64,000 nt of DNA from a virus. The stretch lies in the IMG/VR virus record IMGVR_UViG_3300042731_011014, positions 113,891 through 177,890 of that record. One strand, written 5' to 3'. Positions 15,144 through 52,745 of the stretch are shown piece by piece (positions within the stretch are counted from its first letter, which is position 1; every line of letters begins with the position of its first letter). The translations under genes and the position numbers were made by a program. The notes below the pieces were generated by a model. That model made no database searches. It was not told where the DNA came from and saw nothing but the letters and a program-made list of their open reading frames with translations.

Positions 15144-17663
15144 TTAGCCAGCAGAAGCAGTTTTTTGCTGAAATCTAATCCTAACAAACTCGCTTGGTTT
15201 CTCAGGTGCGATGTAAACATCAATAACTATGAATCCAGCATCAATACTGCCTTGTGGATTATTGCTTGTGTCAACAATTACTGCAAACGCTTCCTCTGGT
15301 GAATTTCCGGCAAAATAACCATCGTTGTAAAGATTGTTTAGAAAACCAACAATCTGTGTTTTTATCCTTGCCCAGAGACCAGGACCATTATTTTCAAATA
15401 CAATCCAATGGGTTGCATTGAATACAGATTTTTTGACAAAGATAAAAAGCCTTCTGGCCTGGATATATCTCCATTCACTGTCAAGTGACAATGTTCGAAC
15501 ACCCCAAACTGCCCGTCCGGTAAAACTTGAGTCCATAAACGGATTAATCCTGGTACTATAAAGAACGTCTCTTTCTCCTTTAGATAGAAGTCGTTCAATA
15601 CCAATGCAATAATTTAGCTTACCATCCTCAATACCACCTGGGGCCTTTCCTACGTTCCGATTTGAATCAGTTCGGGCATAAACACCAGCAACATGCCCAA
15701 CAGGAGGCAATAGCATTGGGCGACCCTCATTTAAGGGATCGGCGATCTGAAGATGCGGATAATACAGCGCACAGTAACTTGTGTTTTTATTTAGCGTTTG
15801 ACGATTCCATTTTGCTGCATCAGTTGGAGTATAGTTCATTGGAACCGCAGCAAGAACAAAACAATCATCCCTGTTCTCTGCGTAACCAATTTGATCATCT
15901 AGTGATGTTGGATCGCTACAAAAATCAGGAATAGAAATCTGCATAGGTTCCTCAATCTTATCAAAGGCATATATACCTTCAAGATCAGCTGCCAATGCAG
16001 GGGCAGTTACATCATTTCGAGTAATCGCCGCAGATCCATCAGCTCCACCGGAAAGTTCACAATAAGCTGTTCCAGTGGGTTCCAGAATATAAGTAACCTG
16101 AATATTGGTGTCTGCCGATGGCTCACTACCACCGTTAAAAATAACCGTACAGGCACCGGTCGTATAATTAACCACTGAGCCACTAGCTAGATTGGTACCA
16201 GAAATTACTCCGGTTCCATCACCCTGATCAGCGTCACCGCCCTCAGAAGCCCCGCCGTCAACATGAACAGTACAAGATCCGGGAAGAATTGACCATCCTG
16301 TTGGGACAACAAGATCTGCCGTAAAAGTGTCAGCCGATCCGGTTCCGTAACCAATCGAATACAGTGACTTGCTAACTGGTTTCAAGGAAGGTGGTACGTC
16401 AGGGCCATCAGCGCCAACAGTTAGATCGACACGTGTCGAAAGAGCATTGATAACGTTTGGTGCGTACCTTGCGCTATCTACATCACTAAAACTTAGTTCG
16501 AGATATTGTTCCTCAATCTGATACACATCATCATCATCTTTTTCATACACATAATAATCGAATTTTGTATAGGCGCCGGTTACAGCACTTTTATAATCCT
16601 CATTGAGTCTAATTTCGCCTTTAACCCCATTTCCCCATGCACCTTTGGATATTGCATCAACATCCCAATATGCACCGGCTGCGACACCATTATAAGTGTG
16701 TGGGTAGCTTCCTTCGGCAAGACCTAGTAGTAAATTGGAGCAATCATTTTCACTTGGCGCACTAAACTCAACTTCTGATAATACTCCAGTTGTTGGGGAC
16801 GTAAAAACCAGTCGGTTATCATCATCTTTTGCGACAATATCTTGCGTGTTTGAAGTATAAGTATGAGGATATGCACCTTCATCAAGACCAAGTAAAAGAT
16901 TGGTGCAATCATTTGCTGATGGTGCGGCAAACTCAATCTCTGTACCGGCCTTAAATAGTAACTTGGTGCCTTGAACAAAACACACCGTTGAACCAACGGC
17001 CGTGTTAATATTGGCAGCAATTACAGTTAACGCATAAGATCCACCTACACCACTATCACCGGTAACATCAATATCCGCAGCTCCACCGTCATCAATATCT
17101 AAATTGATATTAAAGTGTGTACCATCTAATGTGAGAATAGGATCAGTAATCGCTGCACCAAGAAATCGTGCTTTTTGCCAATCGTTATTAATATTGGTCA
17201 CAATTGCAGATAATGCATAAGATCCACCAACACCTTCGTCATTAGTAACATCAATCTCTTTTGCTTCGCCACCATCAATTGCAACATTGATATTATAATG
17301 TGTACCATCTAACGCCGTCGCTGGATCAGGTAAAACTCTCCCGGTTGACTCAGCCGCTGATGCAGACGAATTATGAGCACATGCAGCCGCGGCCGCATCA
17401 CTCGGAGTTACCCTAACCATATAAAGACGCTGGCCTCCATTTGCAAAAAAAGCTGTTACAGCAAAAGAAATATATGATTTTTTCCAATGTTCTCCAAAAG
17501 TTCGGAAATACTGTTCCAAACTTGTTATTAATGTAGCTTCATGCTCGGGACCGCGAGGCGTAAACCCCATGGTCGCCATTGTTGAAGTCGAAACAGCAGC
17601 AATGGCCCCAGCACCGGCTTTCCTCTCTTCGATATAAATTCCGGGACTTAGATAACTGGGCAT
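15144..17663 (-). CDS. contractile tail sheath protein
   Basis: 839 residues from the ATG at 17663, which has a perfect TGGAGG site; an upstream in-frame TTG at 17675 is not needed. N-terminus SYLSPGIYIEERKAGAGAI and FTPRGPEHEATLITSLEQYF match the sheath family, as does the C-terminus with IDVYIAPEKPSEFVRIRFQQ. Residues about 117-325 are an inserted, internally duplicated beta-rich domain: LDGTH(Y/F)NIN...GVGGSYAL occurs twice, and APS.NDC.NLLLGL.EG.YPHTY twice. At 839 residues it is longer than T4 gp18 (659). The insert is probably surface decoration (inference). Confidence 0.93.
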   Translation of the reverse strand: MPSYLSPGIYIEERKAGAGAIAAVSTSTMATMGFTPRGPEHEATLITSLEQYFRTFGEHWKKSYISFAVTAFFANGGQRLYMVRVTPSDAAAAACAHNSSASAAESTGRVLPDPATALDGTHYNINVAIDGGEAKEIDVTNDEGVGGSYALSAIVTNINNDWQKARFLGAAITDPILTLDGTHFNINLDIDDGGAADIDVTGDSGVGGSYALTVIAANINTAVGSTVCFVQGTKLLFKAGTEIEFAAPSANDCTNLLLGLDEGAYPHTYTSNTQDIVAKDDDNRLVFTSPTTGVLSEVEFSAPSENDCSNLLLGLAEGSYPHTYNGVAAGAYWDVDAISKGAWGNGVKGEIRLNEDYKSAVTGAYTKFDYYVYEKDDDDVYQIEEQYLELSFSDVDSARYAPNVINALSTRVDLTVGADGPDVPPSLKPVSKSLYSIGYGTGSADTFTADLVVPTGWSILPGSCTVHVDGGASEGGDADQGDGTGVISGTNLASGSVVNYTTGACTVIFNGGSEPSADTNIQVTYILEPTGTAYCELSGGADGSAAITRNDVTAPALAADLEGIYAFDKIEEPMQISIPDFCSDPTSLDDQIGYAENRDDCFVLAAVPMNYTPTDAAKWNRQTLNKNTSYCALYYPHLQIADPLNEGRPMLLPPVGHVAGVYARTDSNRNVGKAPGGIEDGKLNYCIGIERLLSKGERDVLYSTRINPFMDSSFTGRAVWGVRTLSLDSEWRYIQARRLFIFVKKSVFNATHWIVFENNGPGLWARIKTQIVGFLNNLYNDGYFAGNSPEEAFAVIVDTSNNPQGSIDAGFIVIDVYIAPEKPSEFVRIRFQQKTASAG

Positions 17664-17721
17664 TTTAACCTCCAAAAAAAACCTTACGGTATTTGTTCAT
17701 TTTTAATGCTTATTAAGCTTT

Positions 17722-28986: not shown

Positions 28987-30468
28987 CTATGGCAGGTTAG
29001 AACAAGTGATTAAACCATAGTACTTATTGTTAACTAATTTTTTCGCGTAGCGTGTCCGCATCCCCTTCCTGAAGTTTTGGTCATCAGGGTCGAGGAATGT
29101 TGGAGTAACCTGTAAGGGCACATAAGGCGCATACACCATTCCTGAATCCAAGAATGTTGGTCCCTTTAGGCCTATCATGATTTGATCATCTGGGAATAGT
29201 GGATCAACATAAACAGTCCATCGGTTTTGTAACACGCCTAGGCCATATACACCGAATCCTGACGGCGACGTTGGAGGTTGAGGTGCGGGTTGACCAAGGG
29301 TCCCTTGACCAGCCGGCATACTTCCACCATCAAAAACTGATTTAAAGCTACCATGAGTCTCCATGGCGCTAAACAAGGATGCAGCCCGAGTGCTTGTAAC
29401 AATCCAATTACCCGGACCACGCAAGGTTTGCTTACCGACTTCCTGGGAAACCTTGGCAATCTTGGTTAAAAGAGTCATGTAATGCTCTACTGGGCTATAG
29501 CTTAAACCAGACACATCCGCATCAAACGATTCCTTGTTTGTACCAGCGGCAGCACCTAAATACATGTCCATAATTAGCTCACGGTCGATTTCCAGAGCCA
29601 GTTCTGATGCTACACCACCAACTAACTCCCCTTCAGCGTCCATACCGTGTATGGCTTTTAAATCATCGGCAGCTTCAGCGCTCCACAAGAATTTCAGCTT
29701 CCGGCTACTTACCTTGATTGGGTCAAGGCCGATATCCAAATAGACTTGAGGCACGGTAACATTTGCCCCTTCCATATCGAAAAAGTAGTTAGCGTAGATA
29801 GGAGCTTTGTCATCTACATTACCATCCCAGGTAATATCATAGGCACCATCCGAGTAAGTAATCGTTGATGCTGCACCAGTATCACCAGCTAAATCCCCAC
29901 TTCCGTCGGGATCATAGATTCTTTTGGCTGCGGTTCCAACCAGGGTTGTAAACTCAAGACCAACTTGGGCTTGCGGACATGAAATAAAAGGTTTTACAGG
30001 TGTCCATGAAAGGTTACCAGTGTAATTCGCTGTCGCACCATTACCGGTCGCGATAACTTCGTGATAGATATACTCTGAAGAATAATACCTGTCGAAGTTC
30101 TCGATCATATTGTCGCCAGCTGTAATTGTTCCCTTGGAGGTACCGTATTTGTACTCCCAAGTGAAAATGCCTCCTATAGGGCCAGTCATTGGTTGTATAG
30201 AAACGAGATTGTTAGCAATTAAGTTCGGCCATACCCTACGAATCATAGGGAAGACGAACTTCACGAAATCAGCGAAGTTACCTGTGGTTGTATTTTCACT
30301 GAGGTTTCGGACATGCTGCATTTGATTTTCGAATAAAATAGCCGTGGCTGCCCTACGATAGGGTTCATGGATACCTTCTAAAAGGGGTGCCCATTTTTTA
30401 GTTACAGCTGCGACAAAACTCTTATTTTGAATTGAACGGGTTTCGTTCATTATTTCTCTGGCTTCCAT
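28987..30468 (-). CDS. major capsid protein, T4 gp23-like
   Basis: 493 residues, TTTTTGGAGG site before the ATG. KKWAPLLEGIHEPYR and ILFENQ match the gp23 N-terminus; AADDLKAIHGMDAEGELVGG and ALEIDRELI match the conserved core; PQLV-type and MIGLKGPTFLDSGMVYAPYV plus MRTRYAKKLVNNKYYGLI match the C-terminus. The segment NLSE (55-58) lies where T4 gp23 is cut after FLTE65, so I infer maturation cleavage after Glu58 by the protease encoded next door. Flanked by hairpins on both sides, which may isolate its mRNA. Confidence 0.97.
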   Translation of the reverse strand: MEAREIMNETRSIQNKSFVAAVTKKWAPLLEGIHEPYRRAATAILFENQMQHVRNLSENTTTGNFADFVKFVFPMIRRVWPNLIANNLVSIQPMTGPIGGIFTWEYKYGTSKGTITAGDNMIENFDRYYSSEYIYHEVIATGNGATANYTGNLSWTPVKPFISCPQAQVGLEFTTLVGTAAKRIYDPDGSGDLAGDTGAASTITYSDGAYDITWDGNVDDKAPIYANYFFDMEGANVTVPQVYLDIGLDPIKVSSRKLKFLWSAEAADDLKAIHGMDAEGELVGGVASELALEIDRELIMDMYLGAAAGTNKESFDADVSGLSYSPVEHYMTLLTKIAKVSQEVGKQTLRGPGNWIVTSTRAASLFSAMETHGSFKSVFDGGSMPAGQGTLGQPAPQPPTSPSGFGVYGLGVLQNRWTVYVDPLFPDDQIMIGLKGPTFLDSGMVYAPYVPLQVTPTFLDPDDQNFRKGMRTRYAKKLVNNKYYGLITCSNLP

Positions 30469-30519: not shown

Positions 30520-32124
30520 TTATTCTTTTTTAATTCCTGACAGATCAACTAAAGTATCTATTCCTATTCCAAACAAATCGCCTTCATCCAGCTTTTTTGC
30601 TCGGGTATCCGAATCTATGGAAGTATCATTTCTCCCCTTACGAAGAGATCTAGTGATACTATTATACTCTTCACTTACAGGATTATTATCATCGTATTCA
30701 TCAATGATATCATTAATCTCTTGCTGATTATTTGCAGCACCGTTCGAAATTGCACCCTCAATAATTTTGCGAACCCTTAATTTGTGCGGGTGATCCGAAA
30801 TCTTGCGCTCCACATAAAGTTGCAATGCAAGCTGTCGAGCTGCTATATGAGCCTCAGTTACACTCTGTGATAATTTGTCATTATCATCTTTGAGCTTCTG
30901 AACTTCCTCAGTAACAGCACGTTCGGCCTCCGATTGCTTCTTTACCTTGTTGATAACCAATCTGACTGATTCCTCAAGCTCACTGATTGATTTAAACCTC
31001 ATTATGTCGCCAATGTTATTTTTGACAACTTCAAGATTCTCATCAATCTCATTAACTATATTAGTCAAATGATGTTCAAATCCAATCCGCTTTGCAACGT
31101 TCATGTAATCGTCACGTTCTTTCTCAAGAGCCTCAACTTTTTCCTTGAGTTCACTGCTAACTTTCTTAAGTTGTTCCTTAAGATCTGAGATCTCCTTTTC
31201 TCTTTGACTAACGAGATCGTTAACATCCTCAGGTAAAAGATAAGGAATGAGTTTTTTTGCAATATCTTCCAGTGTTACTTTGGCTCCAGCTACACCAGGA
31301 TCACTTAGTAGCTCGCCGCGCACTTCTTCCTTTGCTTCACTCTTTATCGTCCCTACTTTATCTTCAAGCTTCTTTGCAAAATCCTGCTTAAGATTGTCTT
31401 CTATTTCCTTTTTAAGCTCTTCCTTTGTCTTATTGCTCTGCTTTTCGATTTCTTCCTTTGTTTCCTTCACTGCCATTGAGACAATGTTGTTATATAATTC
31501 AGGATATTTCTTTCTAAATTCCTCAATTGTCATGTCTGAATCTCCATCACCCTCTTGGGTCTGATTATGTTTTTGTTCGTTTACACCAGTAACATTGTCA
31601 TCGCTGCTAGTTTCCTCTTTAAAATCAGGATACGAATTCACCGCAGCTGGATCTGCAACGAAATCAAATGTTATTAGGTTATAATCCTCTTGTACAATGT
31701 CATTGCCAGACCCATCAGGTCTAGTGGTGCCCCAACCTCTGCTAGAAACTCCGACCTTGCCGCCAGACCCAACAATAGCCTTAAGTTCCTTGCCCTTAGA
31801 GGTATCCATAACCAGTGCTTCACCATAAATTTCACCATTTGGTTTCATTTGAAGCTTAGTGATTCTATGACTTGATCGAGATAGTTTTGTTTTACCATCC
31901 CCAGGATGATCGAGTTCACCATAAACAGTATTTTCTTTAATAGCGCTTTGCTTTTTATGTACCTCACGCTCCATTAATTTGCGCTTGTACACTCTCTTAT
32001 TTGCTGTAGGCGTATCACTTAAGCCAAATCTACCTTTAGCTATTAATCTGGTATTACCAGCGGATTCCTCAAGAACATTAATGCTGACATTGGACCATTC
32101 ATCAATTAGTAAGACCTTATCCAT
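30520..32124 (-). CDS. prohead protease-scaffold fusion (gp21 + gp22 type)
   Basis: 534 residues. Residues 1-170 are an S80-type prohead protease: TVYGELDHPGDGKTKLSRSS (His73), SHRITKLQMKPNGEIYGEAL, and GGKVGVSSRGWGT (Ser127/128), then DLNLITFDFVADPAA-like sequence. Residues about 205-480 are a long coiled coil typical of scaffold proteins (KELKKEIEDNLKQDFAKKLE, SDLKEQLKKVSSELKEKVEA). T4 encodes protease and scaffold as separate genes; here one polypeptide would deliver the protease into the core stoichiometrically. It sits immediately before the capsid gene, as expected. Confidence 0.9.
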   Translation of the reverse strand: MDKVLLIDEWSNVSINVLEESAGNTRLIAKGRFGLSDTPTANKRVYKRKLMEREVHKKQSAIKENTVYGELDHPGDGKTKLSRSSHRITKLQMKPNGEIYGEALVMDTSKGKELKAIVGSGGKVGVSSRGWGTTRPDGSGNDIVQEDYNLITFDFVADPAAVNSYPDFKEETSSDDNVTGVNEQKHNQTQEGDGDSDMTIEEFRKKYPELYNNIVSMAVKETKEEIEKQSNKTKEELKKEIEDNLKQDFAKKLEDKVGTIKSEAKEEVRGELLSDPGVAGAKVTLEDIAKKLIPYLLPEDVNDLVSQREKEISDLKEQLKKVSSELKEKVEALEKERDDYMNVAKRIGFEHHLTNIVNEIDENLEVVKNNIGDIMRFKSISELEESVRLVINKVKKQSEAERAVTEEVQKLKDDNDKLSQSVTEAHIAARQLALQLYVERKISDHPHKLRVRKIIEGAISNGAANNQQEINDIIDEYDDNNPVSEEYNSITRSLRKGRNDTSIDSDTRAKKLDEGDLFGIGIDTLVDLSGIKKE

Positions 32125-34364: not shown

Positions 34365-37300
34365 TTATGCTACTTTTTTGTAGCTGATAGCTTCCTTAAT
34401 CTCGCGCATGAGGATCCTTAGTTCTCTAACACCTTTATTGAGTTCTTTGTTTGAATTAATAATATTTAAAACCTGGTCTTTTGACACATTCTTATCTCTG
34501 CCTGAAGTAAGTCTTCTTTCAAATCTGCGTCTTAATTGCTTTTTAACAACTTGAAGGTCCTCTTGAGGAACGTTTTCTGCTGGCTTTTCGGCCGGCAATT
34601 GTCCACTCATTGATATTTTAGATCTGATTTTATCTTGCCTACCTTCAATTGATGCCATTCTTATAGCATCCTCAACACGATGATCTAAGATATCCTCAAT
34701 TTCTGAGTTAGTCATGCCGAAAATGTTTTCCATAATCCATCGTTGTGATACCCATTGTTGCATAGAATCGGCTAACTGTGCTCTTTGATTTCTCACTTCC
34801 ATTTGGGCCATTTCAAAAACAGCGCTCGGGACTGTCATCATGACATTAAAATTAACAGATGATGGGTCAAGGCCTTTAGCCGCAAGATGGACACGTCCAA
34901 TTTGATGGAATCCAGTTTTAAGGACCCTTTGGACCCTCAGTATTGTACGCGCAAATCTAACATCTTCCTGGGAATTATGAACAAAAACTCCGCATTCCGT
35001 AGCAAAATTATGATAACCATCAACAGTCATATCATAAGTATCAATAACAGGGCCTTCTCTAACTTCAACAACCTTATGATTTCTCCCCTTTTTTATCGCG
35101 GTAGCAGTAGACCTACTCATGTACTTCAGCATGTACTCATGTGCAAAATCTGCGTACTTGATGCCATTTTCTGAAAAAATCCTATTAAGTAAACACTCAC
35201 TATATCCGGACCACTTAATAAGCTCTTTTTTACTTTTACATCTATAACTTTTTGCAACTTCTATTAGATGTTCAATATTTGCATCAGCACCTGGACTATA
35301 AACCTGCTCGTAATCTTTTAACTTTTGTGCCCTACCAATACCAGAAGCATTTCTCCTATATAGAGGCATTAGTGAATCCTCAGGTTTTAAATCTATTGCT
35401 TCTCTATAAGATCCGTCTCTCATCATAATAGGATGATCTGGCGTACAAGTTAAAATCTCCCCGTTATCAAGAACAACTTCCACTGTTCTGGTTTTTTTCT
35501 TAGTTAAACGAGCATTTTTTGCTAGACCAGGTACAATATGACCATCATCATTACAAGAGTAAACCCAAAATGGCTTGCTTCTTTTTGAAAGATTCTCAAT
35601 TGTTTCAGATGTTCCATCCAATAAAGGAATCATTGTATTGCCAGCTAAACACAAGGTGGCTCGTGATATTGTTTCCTCATACCCAAGGTAAGCCCTAGGA
35701 ACTTTTATTGCTGCATACAATTTCATTCTAAAATAATCAACGTCATCAATTCCCTGGTACATACTACCCTGAAGCATGTCAATCCGCGTACTATCTTTTC
35801 CACTACGTGTTGGAATCCAGAAATCCTCATCTTGAGAATTCTTTATGAAAATACCAGCCGTTAACGCAAAATTATGATATTTTTCAACAGTTAAAGTATA
35901 AGTATCTTCACACTGTTCAATGTATTTAACTGAAACGACTTTATGATTATTCGATGATGCCCATTTTTTAAAAGATTTGAAATTGTCAAAACCTTTTTCC
36001 CTATACATTTTTAACATTAAATGTCTATGAACTTTCTTTGACAAATTTTCCTGTTTAAATAAATCAATCAATCTGGAATTATTGACATAATTTACAACAT
36101 CTTCTGCGCTAACATTTAAATTGTTGGCCACATATGATTGAACGCCAACGAAAAAATCATCAGAAAACTTAATTTTTCTTTTTTCAGAAAAAGCTACTCT
36201 GTTTTCCTCGTTTTCCCAAAATTTCTTTTTATTTTCTGACCGCTTAACATTGTCTTGCTCATGTTTACATGAATTATTATAAGCTATTATGTACTTTTCT
36301 ATCTTATTCCAAGCTGAAATATTTGCAGATGACACCTTTTTTAGTTTTTTATCCAAAACAGGATCGGATAACCTTATCTGAGACATAATATGACCAATAT
36401 TATGACCATTATCACGATGTATTATACTATGTTCGCTTTTTTTCATAAAAGACAAATTATCGGGAGAATTATCAGTTTTTATAAAATTTTCATGATGAGT
36501 TACACCATTTTGCTTCAATTCATCTCTAACCATACGATGGGTGTAAATATATTTTTTTGTTTTTGGATCATAAACCATCTCGTACCCATCTATTGAATAA
36601 CCCTTATCCTTTGACGAAATAAGAGTTTTGTATGGCATAAGAGAATCACCAGATTTTAAATATCTTGCTTCACAATATTTCCCATCTCTTTTTATAAATT
36701 TATGATCTGGGGTAGTCCTAATTGTTTCACCATTATCAAGAGTTACCTCAACAAGTTGTGCCATTTTTCGGGTTTTTCCTGCCCAAACTATTTTTCCTGG
36801 AACAATTTTCCCACTATCAGATCTATCAACAGAATATACCCAGTTCTCTTTTCCTCTGTTGAATTCGCCAACAAGGTTAACTATTGGGATATCTCTGCCA
36901 TCAAGTAACGCTATTTTTGTATCACCGGTCAAACAAAGAGGATTGTACTTCATATTCAAAGTACCATCTGAGTTGACAAACTTGCGTTTTTTAAACTCAT
37001 TTCGCATTTGTCTGACATGAGCGGTCGCCTCATCGGCATCCATGTCACCCGTATCAACGTAGAAAGCAAACCTTGTAGGAGCCCTGGTAAGTCGGTAAAC
37101 AAGCATCGCATCCTCAAGGAGAACTAATCGTTTCCAGATCCATCTTGCGGGCTCGAGCACGCTATTGTGAACAACAATACCATCTGAAACAAAGCAATGT
37201 CCGTCATCAGCAACTTCTATGTCATAAACCTTTTCAATAATACTTGGTTCTTTAGAAACTATTTTTTCTGAAAAAAAATCATTATCAGAAATATTTTCTC

Positions 37301-40085
37301 TAAAGAATGACAACAAATAACTGTCTCCACTATTTATTTCTTTACCATTTATTATAGATTTTTTATCTCTCGGCTTACGCGGTCTAATGTTCCCAGATAT
37401 CCATCCTAATCCATCTATAACTGTTTTAATATCAGCTAAAAGATTTTTATTGCAAAGCTCAGTGTGATTATATTCTCCTTTTTTGGTTATCCACCCGTCG
37501 GCCTCCATAAATCCATCTATCATCGCTGTTCTGATACTTTTTGGAGCATTATAAACCCAATATGGCACTCTTTTGTTTCTTGCCCTATTAATCCACCCTA
37601 TTTTAATCATTAGATCAGATAATCTTTTTGAACTGACATTAATCGTCCTGCTTATTCCATCATCTCCTCTGCTGACTTCTCTGACATTTAAACCAATACT
37701 TCTTAAGTAATTTTCATAAAATATATTTCTTTCTTCATATACTCCAAGGTGTATAATTATACACCCGTTTTCAATTGCACCATTACCAAGCATATACCCC
37801 CAAAACTTGGCAAATCTATGATCTATAAAATCTGGCAAAATCAATGAATCATATTTTTTCTGCTCAATAGAGTCATAAGTAAATGGTACTCTAATGGAAC
37901 TAAACAATTTTTTTGCACTATCAAATGACAAAGAACTTTTACCATCTAATAATTCATCAAGCTTTCCTTTAGTTATCCCAATATCTTCGGCAAATCTTTT
38001 CAATCCATCAAATTTACTGGAATATTTACTTATTTTTGCACAAGTTTTAAGCGAGTTAATTCCACGTTTACTTAAAACAAATTCAGATTTAGAATTAAAC
38101 TCATCTAATAAAAGGCCAAGTGGAATATTATTCTTTGTTTCTGGGCAATTACTAACGCACATTATTTTATCATTAGGAGACAAATCTTTAACCTGAACCC
38201 ACGTATTTCTCCCTGGCTTTTTATCAACTAAAACAGGATGTTCGCCAGTTAATATTATTTCTCTATGTGCTGTTTTTAACTTAAAGGTTTGCTTTTCCCC
38301 ACTACAAACATGATTCAGTACTTTAGTTTGTCTAAGTAACCCTGCGTGTCTAGTAAAAACACTATCGCCTGGTTTAATATCCTTAATGAACTTCACACCA
38401 TCTGGGGTCCAAACCCTTGATTCACCTGATAAACAATACCCGTACTTACTCTTTCTCATTTTTGATCTAAGACGGAAATGAGCAATCTTCCATGGCTCAT
38501 ATAAAATGGTATTACCATCCTGGGATGCCATTGCACCGTTTGGCATTTCAATGCCAAAAACAGATTTATCAATTTTAAAGTCACCTGAATAAGATTGTGC
38601 AAACCCCAATATTGCACCGGTCCCAGTTTCAAACCTCCTAATCGTAGCTGATGGAAGGAAATTTAATCCCTGAACACCATCATCGTTAACCAGTATCTCT
38701 TCATAATCACTGCCATATTTGCAAACTGTTCTAGATATCTCCCAAATATTGTCTTCAGCTCTTATTTTGTTGTCATACATATCGGTAAGATCTGTTTGAA
38801 CATTATCATCCTCGCATTCAACCCACATAGATCGGTTTTTTTCACCATCAGTTTGTGTTGAATCGTCTGCATATATATCGAGAGCCGAATTGTGAACAAC
38901 TACTCCATTGCAAACAAAATTATGATATTTTGGGACTTCAATATCATACACATCGTAAGATTCGCTAATTCTTATAACATTAACCACTCGATGATTTCCA
39001 ACATCAGAGATGAGATCGAATTCTTCTAGCCTGCGTTTCAGTACGCCAAAAGATACGCCTAGCTTTTTTGCTGCCTCAGTTATACTACTTGATGACATAT
39101 AAGCAGCTTCAACCTCTTCCCTGCTAAGCTTTATTTTATGCCCTTCAGCTATCTTGCGCTTGTGCTCTTCTGATAGTTTTTTGTCTGTTAACGGCACTCT
39201 CTGCTTTTTATCTGTTTTCCTTTGATTTGGATGTTTTGTTCCAAGCATTTTTCTAGAGCGCTCTTTGCGCAATTCATCTGTCCATTCTGGAAAATACTTA
39301 GTTGTATCGTGACTTTCGAAATTATGCTTTCTGGCATGAGAATTATGGGTTTCTAGACTAAGGTTGTCCAAACTATTATTTAAAGGGTTGTTGTCTTTGT
39401 GGTGGACAACCTCCCCTTTTTTTCTTTCCAAAAGCTCATTAGCGACCAATTTATGAATCCAAGTCCACCTTTTCCCGTCACTTTCTCTTATTGATTCTGG
39501 TGATGGTTGGTGGACTTGCCAATATTCGTTTTTACTCTTAGGAGTTAATTTTCTAGTTCTAAGTGCCCCTGGCATTAATCGTGTACCAGGTTTTAGTTCG
39601 CCAGCTTTTTTCCAAACATTAATTTTGGTTAAAAACAAATGATCATCAGTACATGTAATGCTTTCGCCATTATCAAATAAAACTTTGACCATTTGTTTTG
39701 GATGACCTGCCTTGCCTGTTATACGTGCATTTTTTGCTTTTGCAGGTAATAGAGATCTTCTTAACCTGTTATAAGAAAGAACATGAAACTCTCCTCCTCT
39801 CTCTGCAAGTTTTTTAACTTCAATCCAACCATCTTCTATTGTAAAAATCTTACAACATCCCGTAATACAAGAAAGATCTGGGTAGTCATCCATATTTTCA
39901 TAATCGACATAGCGACTCATAAGATCATGATCTAATTGCAAATAATCGGCTACTGAGTCAAATCCGAACTGCATAAACAGGTTGAAATCTTTTTCGCCAG
40001 CCTGAGGAAGATCGGACCGAGAAACCTCATTTTCTCTTTTGAAAATATTTCTTACATATCCAGCAATTTTATCACTTATTGACAT
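34365..40085 (-). CDS. portal protein (gp20-like) carrying four inteins
   Basis: 1906 residues in one frame. Removing four inteins (73-399, 551-974, 1051-1416, 1479-1704) leaves a 563-residue portal, close to T4 gp20 (524). Extein landmarks: FNLFMQFGFDSVADYLQLDH, MWVECEDDNVQTDLTDMYDN, ARWIWKRLVLLEDAMLVYRL, APTRFAFYVDTGDMDADEAT, KVPRAYLGYEETISRATL and a helical C-terminus with QLRRRFERRL. Every intein starts with Cys, ends in Asn and is followed by Ser. The dodecameric portal is the DNA channel and packaging-motor dock; it must splice four times before assembly. It follows the large terminase by 3 nt. Confidence 0.93.
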   Translation of the reverse strand: MSISDKIAGYVRNIFKRENEVSRSDLPQAGEKDFNLFMQFGFDSVADYLQLDHDLMSRYVDYENMDDYPDLSCITGCCKIFTIEDGWIEVKKLAERGGEFHVLSYNRLRRSLLPAKAKNARITGKAGHPKQMVKVLFDNGESITCTDDHLFLTKINVWKKAGELKPGTRLMPGALRTRKLTPKSKNEYWQVHQPSPESIRESDGKRWTWIHKLVANELLERKKGEVVHHKDNNPLNNSLDNLSLETHNSHARKHNFESHDTTKYFPEWTDELRKERSRKMLGTKHPNQRKTDKKQRVPLTDKKLSEEHKRKIAEGHKIKLSREEVEAAYMSSSSITEAAKKLGVSFGVLKRRLEEFDLISDVGNHRVVNVIRISESYDVYDIEVPKYHNFVCNGVVVHNSALDIYADDSTQTDGEKNRSMWVECEDDNVQTDLTDMYDNKIRAEDNIWEISRTVCKYGSDYEEILVNDDGVQGLNFLPSATIRRFETGTGAILGFAQSYSGDFKIDKSVFGIEMPNGAMASQDGNTILYEPWKIAHFRLRSKMRKSKYGYCLSGESRVWTPDGVKFIKDIKPGDSVFTRHAGLLRQTKVLNHVCSGEKQTFKLKTAHREIILTGEHPVLVDKKPGRNTWVQVKDLSPNDKIMCVSNCPETKNNIPLGLLLDEFNSKSEFVLSKRGINSLKTCAKISKYSSKFDGLKRFAEDIGITKGKLDELLDGKSSLSFDSAKKLFSSIRVPFTYDSIEQKKYDSLILPDFIDHRFAKFWGYMLGNGAIENGCIIIHLGVYEERNIFYENYLRSIGLNVREVSRGDDGISRTINVSSKRLSDLMIKIGWINRARNKRVPYWVYNAPKSIRTAMIDGFMEADGWITKKGEYNHTELCNKNLLADIKTVIDGLGWISGNIRPRKPRDKKSIINGKEINSGDSYLLSFFRENISDNDFFSEKIVSKEPSIIEKVYDIEVADDGHCFVSDGIVVHNSVLEPARWIWKRLVLLEDAMLVYRLTRAPTRFAFYVDTGDMDADEATAHVRQMRNEFKKRKFVNSDGTLNMKYNPLCLTGDTKIALLDGRDIPIVNLVGEFNRGKENWVYSVDRSDSGKIVPGKIVWAGKTRKMAQLVEVTLDNGETIRTTPDHKFIKRDGKYCEARYLKSGDSLMPYKTLISSKDKGYSIDGYEMVYDPKTKKYIYTHRMVRDELKQNGVTHHENFIKTDNSPDNLSFMKKSEHSIIHRDNGHNIGHIMSQIRLSDPVLDKKLKKVSSANISAWNKIEKYIIAYNNSCKHEQDNVKRSENKKKFWENEENRVAFSEKRKIKFSDDFFVGVQSYVANNLNVSAEDVVNYVNNSRLIDLFKQENLSKKVHRHLMLKMYREKGFDNFKSFKKWASSNNHKVVSVKYIEQCEDTYTLTVEKYHNFALTAGIFIKNSQDEDFWIPTRSGKDSTRIDMLQGSMYQGIDDVDYFRMKLYAAIKVPRAYLGYEETISRATLCLAGNTMIPLLDGTSETIENLSKRSKPFWVYSCNDDGHIVPGLAKNARLTKKKTRTVEVVLDNGEILTCTPDHPIMMRDGSYREAIDLKPEDSLMPLYRRNASGIGRAQKLKDYEQVYSPGADANIEHLIEVAKSYRCKSKKELIKWSGYSECLLNRIFSENGIKYADFAHEYMLKYMSRSTATAIKKGRNHKVVEVREGPVIDTYDMTVDGYHNFATECGVFVHNSQEDVRFARTILRVQRVLKTGFHQIGRVHLAAKGLDPSSVNFNVMMTVPSAVFEMAQMEVRNQRAQLADSMQQWVSQRWIMENIFGMTNSEIEDILDHRVEDAIRMASIEGRQDKIRSKISMSGQLPAEKPAENVPQEDLQVVKKQLRRRFERRLTSGRDKNVSKDQVLNIINSNKELNKGVRELRILMREIKEAISYKKVA
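34974..35651 (-). other. intein 4 of the portal, endonuclease-less (226 aa)
   Basis: Portal residues 1479-1704. Starts CLAGNTMIPLLDGTSE, block B EILTCTPDHPIMM, ends VIDTYDMTVDGYHNF and GVFVHN before Ser. Only about 90 residues separate the splicing halves (LIEVAKSYRCKSKKELIKWS is part of them). I see no HNH or LAGLIDADG motif, so it is close to a mini-intein. Confidence 0.88.
35838..36935 (-). other. intein 3 of the portal, HNH-like, KN terminus (366 aa)
   Basis: Portal residues 1051-1416. Starts CLTGDTKIALLDGRDIP, block B ETIRTTPDHKF, ends CEDTYTLTVEKYHNF and AGIFIKN before Ser. The penultimate His is replaced by Lys. The insert holds THRMVRDELKQNGVTHHENF and TDNSPDNLSF, an HNH-like set. 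Confidence 0.88.
37164..38435 (-). other. intein 2 of the portal, LAGLIDADG type (424 aa)
   Basis: Portal residues 551-974. Starts CLSGESRVWTPDGVKF, block B EIILTGEHPVLV, ends KVYDIEVADDGHCF and SDGIVVHN before Ser. Two degenerate LAGLIDADG helices, WGYMLGNGAIENG and IDGFMEADGW, are about 95 residues apart, as in monomeric DOD endonucleases. Confidence 0.92.
38889..39869 (-). other. intein 1 of the portal, HNH type (327 aa)
   Basis: Portal residues 73-399. Starts CITGCCKIFTIEDGW (block A), block B ESITCTDDHLF, ends with block F/G YDVYDIEVPKYHNF then CNGVVVHN, followed by Ser. The insert has HHKDNNPLNNSLDNL (HNH), SEEHKRKIAEGHK (NUMOD3-like) and AAKKLGVSFGVLKRRL (helix-turn-helix), so a complete homing endonuclease. 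Confidence 0.92.
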
Positions 40086-51052: not shown

Positions 51053-52675
51053 CTACCGCCCTTCTGGCCGCATATGTGGAAAAAGGACTACATCTCGAAT
51101 GCTTGGCTGATCACAAAGGAGCATCACCAAACGATCAATTCCTATGCCCTCACCTGCTGTTGGAGGCATGCCGTATTCCAAAGCCCGACAATAATCCTCA
51201 TCATACTCCATTGCCTCCTCATCACCGCGCTCCCTTTCTTTGAGTTGGTGAACAAATCGGTCCCGTTGATCTGCTGGATCATTCAACTCCGAAAACGCGT
51301 TTACTATCTCACGCCCGGCAATAAATAGCTCAAATCGGTCAACTAACTCTGGACAGTTATCTTTGCGTCGAGAAAGAGGGGATGTAGCCGCTGGATAATC
51401 AATAACAAAAGTGGGCCTGTCTGCGGGTAAATGAGACTCACCTAGCTCCTCAAACAAAATCCCCAAACGCTTGCCATGGCTTTCTGCAAAACGAAGCCAT
51501 TGACCAAGTTGGTCATCACGGGCTAAAAGCCCTGCTTCCTTACACCACTTCTCAGTTGCACCAGCGTCGTCAAGGGTTTTAAGGGTCACTTCTGGTGAAA
51601 AACCTTCCTTTTTGCAGGCCTGAACAATACATTCTTTTACGGTAAGTCGGGGCCAGCGAGGCGATAAATCAATGTCTTGCCCTTGATACTGTATTTGGGT
51701 GCTATTACAAATTTGCTTGGTTAGCTGCATAAAGAGATCCTCTGTGAGATCCATAAGGTCTTGATATGTGGCATATGCCTGATAGAACTCGAGCATAGTG
51801 AATTCGGGGTTATGTTGGCGAGATAATCCTTCATTGCGAAAATTTCTGCCGATCTCATAGACCCGCTCAAATCCGCCGACCACCAATCGCTTTAAAAACA
51901 ACTCTGGGGCAATACGCAAATAAAGTGGCATATTTAATGCGTTATGGTGAGTACAAAAGGGTTTAGCAGCAGCGCCACCTAGTATGCTATGAAGAAGAGG
52001 GGTTTCAACCTCAATAAAATCAATGTCATCAAAATATTTGCGCAGAAATTTGATAATTTCGCTTCGTTTACGAAAAACTTCGGCGACCTCTGGATTGGCG
52101 ATCAGGTCCACATATCGCTGACGATAACGGGTTTCCTTATCTTTTAGGCCTTTCCACTTTTCAGGTGGAGGACGGACCGCTTTGGTAAGCAAAACAACTT
52201 CCTCAGCCATAAGCGTTAGCTCGCCAGTTTTTGTAAGAAATGGTTTTCCACTTACTCCTAAAAAATCATAGGCCTCTGCCTTTTTAAAGATGGCATAAGC
52301 CTCTTGTCCAACCATATCTTTTCGTATGTAAACCTGCAATCGGTCGGTTCTATCGGCTAATTTAACAAAAGCAACCTTGCCAAAGATCCTATGCTCAACA
52401 ATACGGCCAGCTATGGAAAACAGCTCATTCAATATTGGCTCCCCATTAGGGCTTCCACCATCTGGAAGCTCTACCTTGGCAAGCTTCTTTTTAATCTGAT
52501 AGGTTGTGTGGGTGGGCTTAAAATCATTCCTATATGGATTATGACCATCTTTTTGTAGCTGCCGAGCCTTTGCTTGCCGCTTTAGGATGAGCCGATTCAC
52601 TTCTTCGATTGTTTGCTGCTTTTCTATTGTGTCTGCTGAAGGACCCCGGGGGGCACTTACCTTCTGTTGCTCCAC
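51053..52675 (-). CDS. lysS: lysyl-tRNA synthetase, class II
   Basis: About 540 residues from the GTG at 52675, which has AAAAGGAG 5 nt before it; an in-frame TTG at 52693 lacks a site. N-terminal OB-fold anticodon domain (about 65-175), then class II motif 2 (GRNFRNEGLSRQHNPEFTML) and motif 3 (GEGIGIDRLVMLL) with the family end LFPHMRPEGR. It charges tRNA-Lys. Visibly more GC-rich than its neighbours and with a different codon style, so recently acquired, probably from a bacterium. Its stop abuts the OmpA-like remnant in the same frame. Confidence 0.93.
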   Translation of the reverse strand: MEQQKVSAPRGPSADTIEKQQTIEEVNRLILKRQAKARQLQKDGHNPYRNDFKPTHTTYQIKKKLAKVELPDGGSPNGEPILNELFSIAGRIVEHRIFGKVAFVKLADRTDRLQVYIRKDMVGQEAYAIFKKAEAYDFLGVSGKPFLTKTGELTLMAEEVVLLTKAVRPPPEKWKGLKDKETRYRQRYVDLIANPEVAEVFRKRSEIIKFLRKYFDDIDFIEVETPLLHSILGGAAAKPFCTHHNALNMPLYLRIAPELFLKRLVVGGFERVYEIGRNFRNEGLSRQHNPEFTMLEFYQAYATYQDLMDLTEDLFMQLTKQICNSTQIQYQGQDIDLSPRWPRLTVKECIVQACKKEGFSPEVTLKTLDDAGATEKWCKEAGLLARDDQLGQWLRFAESHGKRLGILFEELGESHLPADRPTFVIDYPAATSPLSRRKDNCPELVDRFELFIAGREIVNAFSELNDPADQRDRFVHQLKERERGDEEAMEYDEDYCRALEYGMPPTAGEGIGIDRLVMLLCDQPSIRDVVLFPHMRPEGR

Positions 52676-52745
52676 AACTACTCCTTTTGCCAACTCTTTA
52701 TCTTAAACAAATTCAAATTCTTAATTGGACTCGCCACTGCCTTAT

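Follow-up and report, generated by a model that had tools for sequence, protein, structure and literature searches.

The IMG/VR virus record IMGVR_UViG_3300042731_011014 comprises 177,890 bases, and the stretch analysed here, referred to as the window, covers its positions 113891-177890 (64,000 nucleotides). The window contains a gene for a T4-type phage portal protein, which has very probably taken up site-specific mobile inteins on four separate occasions, by independent homing. Relatives of each intein are found at the same sites in other phages, therefore we regard the gene as a pile-up of known selfish elements and not as a new control switch. The gene carries the most inteins of any phage portal gene in our survey.

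Portal reading frame and joined exteins

The portal gene is a single open reading frame (ORF) of 1906 codons on the minus strand, which runs from 40085 to 34365 without an internal stop (Table 1). A plus-strand reading of the interval was rejected, as a long open frame is absent there. The initial annotation, made from the sequence alone, had described one frame with four inteins, and its coordinates and lengths were right; the strand, which it did not give, is added here. Its description of the joined exteins as a 563-residue gp20-like portal holds as well. The profile Portal_T4 matched in four stretches (4.9e-51) before the removal of the inteins and in one stretch (1.6e-73) after it, covering model positions 4-426 of 433. 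Together with the neighbouring genes for the large terminase subunit (TerL), the head protease and the major head protein, this full-length match identifies a portal of the T4 gp20 type.

When the joined portal was aligned with 28 relatives, of which 20 reach site 72 and all reach the other three sites, the four junctions were gap-free against the portals that are intein-free there; such continuity with gp20 relatives had been proposed as a check in the initial annotation. All four inteins lie in the translated frame and would excise themselves, and the mature product would be an ordinary portal subunit. By the sequence, a working portal would need four splicing events per subunit, which would amount to 48 events for a ring of 12 subunits like that of known portals. 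Third codon positions of the inteins have a GC content of 0.22-0.28, below that of the exteins (0.31-0.47).

Table 1. Coordinates of the portal gene, its exteins and inteins, and further features. Positions are those of the window unless a genome or locus handle precedes them.
Feature	Position	Strand	Detail	Profile or sequence match
Portal (gp20-type) precursor ORF, 1906 codons	34365..40085	minus	5 exteins and 4 inteins	
Extein 1	39870..40085	minus	portal residues 1-72	
Intein 1, 327 aa	38889..39869	minus	precursor aa 73-399; site 72/73; predicted HNH endonuclease, complete	Intein_splicing 3.9e-18; HNH_3 1.3e-6
Extein 2	38436..38888	minus	portal residues 73-223	
Intein 2, 424 aa	37164..38435	minus	precursor aa 551-974; site 223/224; LAGLIDADG type, GNG for GDG in the first helix	Intein_splicing 2e-10
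Extein 3	36936..37163	minus	portal residues 224-299	
Intein 3, 366 aa	35838..36935	minus	precursor aa 1051-1416; site 299/300; HNH type, ends Lys-Asn	Intein_splicing 8.2e-19; PHROG HNH 2.6e-12
Extein 4	35652..35837	minus	portal residues 300-361	
Intein 4, 226 aa	34974..35651	minus	precursor aa 1479-1704; site 361/362; endonuclease block deleted	Intein_splicing 1.8e-15
Extein 5	34365..34973	minus	portal residues 362-563 and stop	
Terminase large subunit, 677 aa	40089..42122	minus	intein-free	phmmer 3.2e-78 to TerL exteins of L063
Head maturation protease	30520..32124	minus		PHROG 207, 3.6e-39
Major head protein	28987..30468	minus		PHROG 138, 1.5e-69
Tail sheath (contractile tail)	15144..17675	minus		PHROG 23, 8.8e-60
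Seven non-portal inteins (SF2 helicase, primase, DnaB-type helicase, class II ribonucleotide reductase)	G000:C1 33217-37029, 39648-41813, 42021-44603, 60143-65971			
ORFs in the +1 frame of terminase inteins of relatives	L063:4648-5700; L015 from 5708; L034:5453-8074; L033 from 3368; L012 from 2745			

Properties of the four inteins

Each of the four segments starts with Cys (Cys1), contains a block B T-x-x-H and a block F, and ends with Asn followed by Ser at position +1. That such Cys-start and Asn-Ser-end segments are inteins, as initially annotated, was confirmed by independent profiles: Pfam Intein_splicing and NCBIfam intein_Nterm lie above their cut-offs in all four, and NCBIfam intein_Cterm only in inteins 1, 2 and 4. 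All four have the marks of class 1 inteins, i.e., the nucleophile, the C-terminal Asn, the HINT fold, a continuous host protein and empty sites in relatives. The HINT fold was assigned to inteins 2 and 4 from predicted models that match solved inteins, and to inteins 1 and 3 by the Pfam profile only.

Three endonucleases of two classes had been proposed, and this assignment stands, with the qualification that the activity of the second one is probably lost. Intein 1 has an HNH motif recognized by HNH_3, and intein 3 has one recognized by the PHROG HNH endonuclease profile, its HNH_3 match of 0.012 being below the cut-off. The LAGLIDADG match of intein 2 is weak by sequence (0.068). Its AlphaFold model (mean pLDDT 83) shows the two-fold LAGLIDADG architecture and is matched by Foldseek to the TliVMA intein (1.2e-20), PI-PkoII, PI-SceI and I-DmoI, and its profile matches 7qsu (7.4e-14). 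In an active LAGLIDADG enzyme, both helices must end with an acidic residue. The second helix of intein 2 retains ADG, and the first one has GNG, with Asn in place of a catalytic Asp, whereas GDG is present in all seven relatives in the alignment, thus cleavage has probably been lost or reduced, and we treat intein 2 as a LAGLIDADG endonuclease by fold, of doubtful activity.

Intein 4 has no HNH motif, and no endonuclease was found in its insert. In the alignment with the same-site intein of the related portal locus L170, the HNH block is gone and the stretch behind it is retained; the predicted model of intein 4 is a HINT fold. The endonuclease states, as read from the sequences, are graded from complete HNH (inteins 1 and 3) through a mutated LAGLIDADG active site (intein 2) to deletion (intein 4), and the inteins would accordingly have reached different points in the homing cycle.

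Intein occupancy in related portals

The best relative of each portal intein is an intein at the same portal site in another phage, with 45-64% identity. Intein 1 is closest to site-72 inteins at 46% (same-site relatives 43-46%), intein 2 to the site-223 intein of L106 at 45%, intein 3 to site-299 inteins at 46%, rising to 53% over part of L033, and intein 4 to the site-361 intein of L170 at 64% and 54% over its two parts. Among annotated phages, no relative of intein 1 was found and only weak ones of inteins 2-4. With intein 3 as the seed, a scan of viral_contigs gave no confirmed hit, and the same-site inteins surfaced via the portal instead.

Related portals were compiled from viral_contigs scans combined with one genome_contigs scan, and the queries included a 76-residue extein segment; a long portal query favours intein-free loci. 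Among 187 distinct portal ORFs, that of the window excluded, 147 have no intein, 31 have one, seven have two, two have three and none has four, all of these being minimum counts owing to the many truncated contigs and to the limit of 80 best loci in each scan. About ten portal sites are occupied, at residues about 64, 67, 70, 72, 82, 135, 223, 248, 299, 324 and 361. L170 has three inteins (sites 72, 248 and 361), and two each are present in L106, L076, L063, L040, L039 and L030. The relatives from IMG/VR belong to the same portal family, and most of them share sites and homologous inteins with the window, with the exceptions of L063, which uses sites 135 and 248, and L200, which uses sites near 67-82. 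They differ in having fewer visible inteins; each of the four window sites is occupied elsewhere, but no relative unites all of them.

Two loci deserve separate mention. L200:3-3317, a 1105-aa ORF on a contig cut upstream, contains at least three portal inteins within about 20 extein residues, at sites near 67, 70 and 82, with few extein residues between neighbours. L244 (JAJDDX010000500.1, a 183 kb contig) encodes a related portal with a site-72 intein and was binned with a Phycisphaerae metagenome-assembled genome, a possible hint at the host group, given that the binning of phage contigs is unreliable.

The empty sites that the initial annotation suggested looking for in related phages were found, including in near-identical pairs. 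At sites 72 and 299, such IMG/VR phages differ by the exact presence or absence of whole codons. L008 is empty and L033 occupied at site 299 by a 519-bp (173-codon) intein, with flanks 97.6-98.8% identical; L015 is empty and L026 occupied at site 72 by a 1119-bp (373-codon) intein (flanks 96.9-99.3%); L026 is empty and L040 occupied at site 299 by a 1035-bp (345-codon) intein (flanks 96-97.8%). Likewise, sites 135 and 248 are both empty in L014 and occupied in L063. Three of the five insertions come with a change of the residue that follows the site, from Ala in the empty portal to Ser (L026, site 72; L040, site 299) or Cys (L063, site 135) in the occupied one. This change supports the arrival of the intein together with its required nucleophile, as a short co-conversion tract would give, and therefore also supports gain by homing. 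Occupation is patchy on the portal tree, with nine changes for ten occupied rows at site 72 and seven for seven at site 299. L042, L043 and L050-L052 are labelled empty in this tree since the cutting rule missed their site-82 inteins, and the four window sites are unaffected.

Origin of the inteins

Homing offers the most likely entry route: the endonuclease would cut a co-infecting phage at its unoccupied site, and the intein would be copied in during repair. The observed pattern fits the homing cycle described in PMC8966425, and inteins 1 and 3 are predicted to be able to home. Several points weigh against this reading. Splicing and cleavage are predictions from sequence. No close relative of the window phage was seen. 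Moreover, intein 3 lacks the usual penultimate His and ends with Lys-Asn in place of His-Asn. Its same-site relatives lack this His as well, and the other site-299 inteins end with Cys-Asn, Phe-Asn or Lys-Asn, thus the ending appears to be a habit of the site and not local damage.

The initial annotation suggested that dependence on four splicing events could act as a maturation or temperature/redox checkpoint. The inteins would then have been recruited so that temperature-, redox- or metal-dependent splicing times the supply of mature portal and hence the start of head assembly. The portal is needed early in head assembly and in small number, which would suit such a role. Condition-dependent splicing is documented for some inteins, e.g., that of mycobacterial DnaB (PMC6195587, PMC7360933). 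However, 147 of the 187 related portals do without inteins, elements at the same sites come and go between near-identical phages, and the endonucleases are complete, decayed or deleted, as would be expected of selfish elements. In addition, the seven further inteins of the genome reside in replication and nucleotide-metabolism genes. Since the inteins are optional, patchy, selfish-looking and also present in such genes, the checkpoint finds no support in our data, and we consider the recruitment highly unlikely. It is just as improbable that the stacked inteins are retained since their splicing sets the timing of mature portal as a post-translational control of head assembly, and we infer that a regulatory role is absent.

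Inteins 1, 3 and 4 share 25-35% identity among themselves and belong to one HNH-type splicing stock, which could suggest that the four inteins are recent copies of one intein to new sites within the same gene. Each of them is, however, far closer to the same-site intein of another phage than to its neighbours, and intein 2 belongs to a separate LAGLIDADG stock. The tree of splicing domains (n=47) comprises these two stocks, LAGLIDADG (sites 135, 223 and 248) and HNH (sites 72, 299, 324, 361, 82, 68 and some TerL sites), and groups by site: it has 21 label changes, while 200 shuffles average 34.9 and all lie above 21. We therefore reject a recent spread by copying inside the portal gene and give it almost no credence. 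Ancient jumps between sites within the HNH stock are likely because inteins 1, 3 and 4 share it. Finally, the record is a metagenome-derived virus contig, but the idea that faulty assembly or prediction created the long ORF, or that some of its segments are ordinary portal domains, has a negligible probability, as misassembly cannot yield four precise in-frame elements at sites also used in unrelated contigs, and the relatives align gap-free without the segments.

Comparison with known systems and implications

The presence of several inteins or intein sites in one gene has counterparts elsewhere. In Trichodesmium, the ribonucleotide reductase gene likewise has four inteins (Liu et al. 2003, as related in the papers that cite it, PMC1635734 and PMC4649490); it differs in being a cellular metabolic gene that also has group II introns, whereas the portal is a structural gene in which no introns were found. 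The haloarchaeal MCM gene has four intein sites, several of them neighbouring and each with its own intein family, but it encodes an archaeal helicase, and its four sites are treated across genomes and strains and not as a phage gene with four inteins at once (PMC10643990). A portal intein is listed in six entries of cluster C1 mycobacteriophages, which belong to another phage group and are not listed with several inteins in one portal (PMC5050341); no portal match to the window inteins was found among mycobacteriophage records. The core genes of crAss-like phages of the Zeta and Delta groups are likewise heavily loaded with self-splicing elements; their content of up to 14 introns and 3 inteins was described as without precedent for phage genomes, and one TerL has two inteins (PMC7886860), while the window phage has 11 inteins and no detected intron. 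No literature on several inteins in a gp20-type portal was found in a search conducted largely outside subscription journals. The initial view of four inteins in one gene as exceptional thus stands for a phage structural gene, where none of the 187 other portals equals it, and does not stand in the sense of unprecedented, given the Trichodesmium gene. Four inteins in one gene are known elsewhere, and the portal described here is an extreme case.

Together with the terminase gene, the T4-type portal is a major target of intein insertion; it offers about ten sites and, in near-identical phages, natural pairs of empty and occupied genes. Homing in phage populations thereby becomes testable, including the help or hindrance between neighbouring inteins, the decay of endonucleases and the splicing load tolerated by a structural protein. 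Annotation pipelines may miss or fragment portal and terminase genes, which serve as phage markers.

Putative out-of-frame endonucleases in terminase inteins of relatives

The terminase gene lies directly upstream of the portal gene and is without inteins here; its relatives have two or three. Outside the window, another long ORF overlaps the middle terminase intein of L063, L015, L034, L033 and L012 in the +1 frame; in the two scanned cases (L063 and L034), this ORF encodes a TnsA-like nuclease with NUMOD3 repeats. In nine of ten pairs, amino acid identity is 0.42-0.63 in the +1 frame versus 0.18-0.39 in the intein frame, and in the tenth (L063-L015) it is 0.67 versus 0.52. In all pairs, third codon positions of the +1 frame account for most of the differences. 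The +1 frame is the better conserved of the two, and the intein frame stays open. In these five phages, the intein appears to conceal a homing endonuclease in another frame. Out-of-frame HNH insertions in a phage methylase have no splicing domains (PMC11855218), whereas the terminase case is joined with a true intein. The combination may be new and merits separate study.

Other inteins and genomic context

The whole record has 11 inteins in five genes, with 4007 residues in total or about 12.0 kb (6.8% of the record). Four are in the portal, three in a class II (B12-type) ribonucleotide reductase, two in an SF2-type helicase, one of which starts with Ser (Ser1), and one each in a DnaB-type helicase and a primase. 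The record-wide scan used a custom splicing-domain profile trained partly on these inteins, therefore only its negatives and the independent Pfam hits count as evidence. With this profile, no window intein was found outside the portal, and apart from the 11 inteins the 177.9-kb record gave matches at noise level. As in portal intein 2, the first LAGLIDADG-like helix of SF2 helicase intein 2 and of ribonucleotide reductase intein 1 appears, by eye, to have NG for DG (GNG and CNG), and several endonucleases of the genome are possibly decaying. At Rfam gathering thresholds, neither group I nor group II introns were detected in the genome.

A HEARO RNA (Rfam RF02033, 140.5 bits) is located at L087:12495-12727 on the minus strand, which corresponds to about 83494-83726 of G000, the same genome. 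It may be an orphan, since the listed ORFs around it include no obvious IscB-type nuclease. The genome has a single tRNA gene (Pro), predicted by ARAGORN, and the window encodes at 51053-52693 on the minus strand an aminoacyl-tRNA synthetase of class II, which has an anticodon-binding domain and belongs to the Asp/Lys/Asn type (tRNA-synt_2, 8.8e-92).
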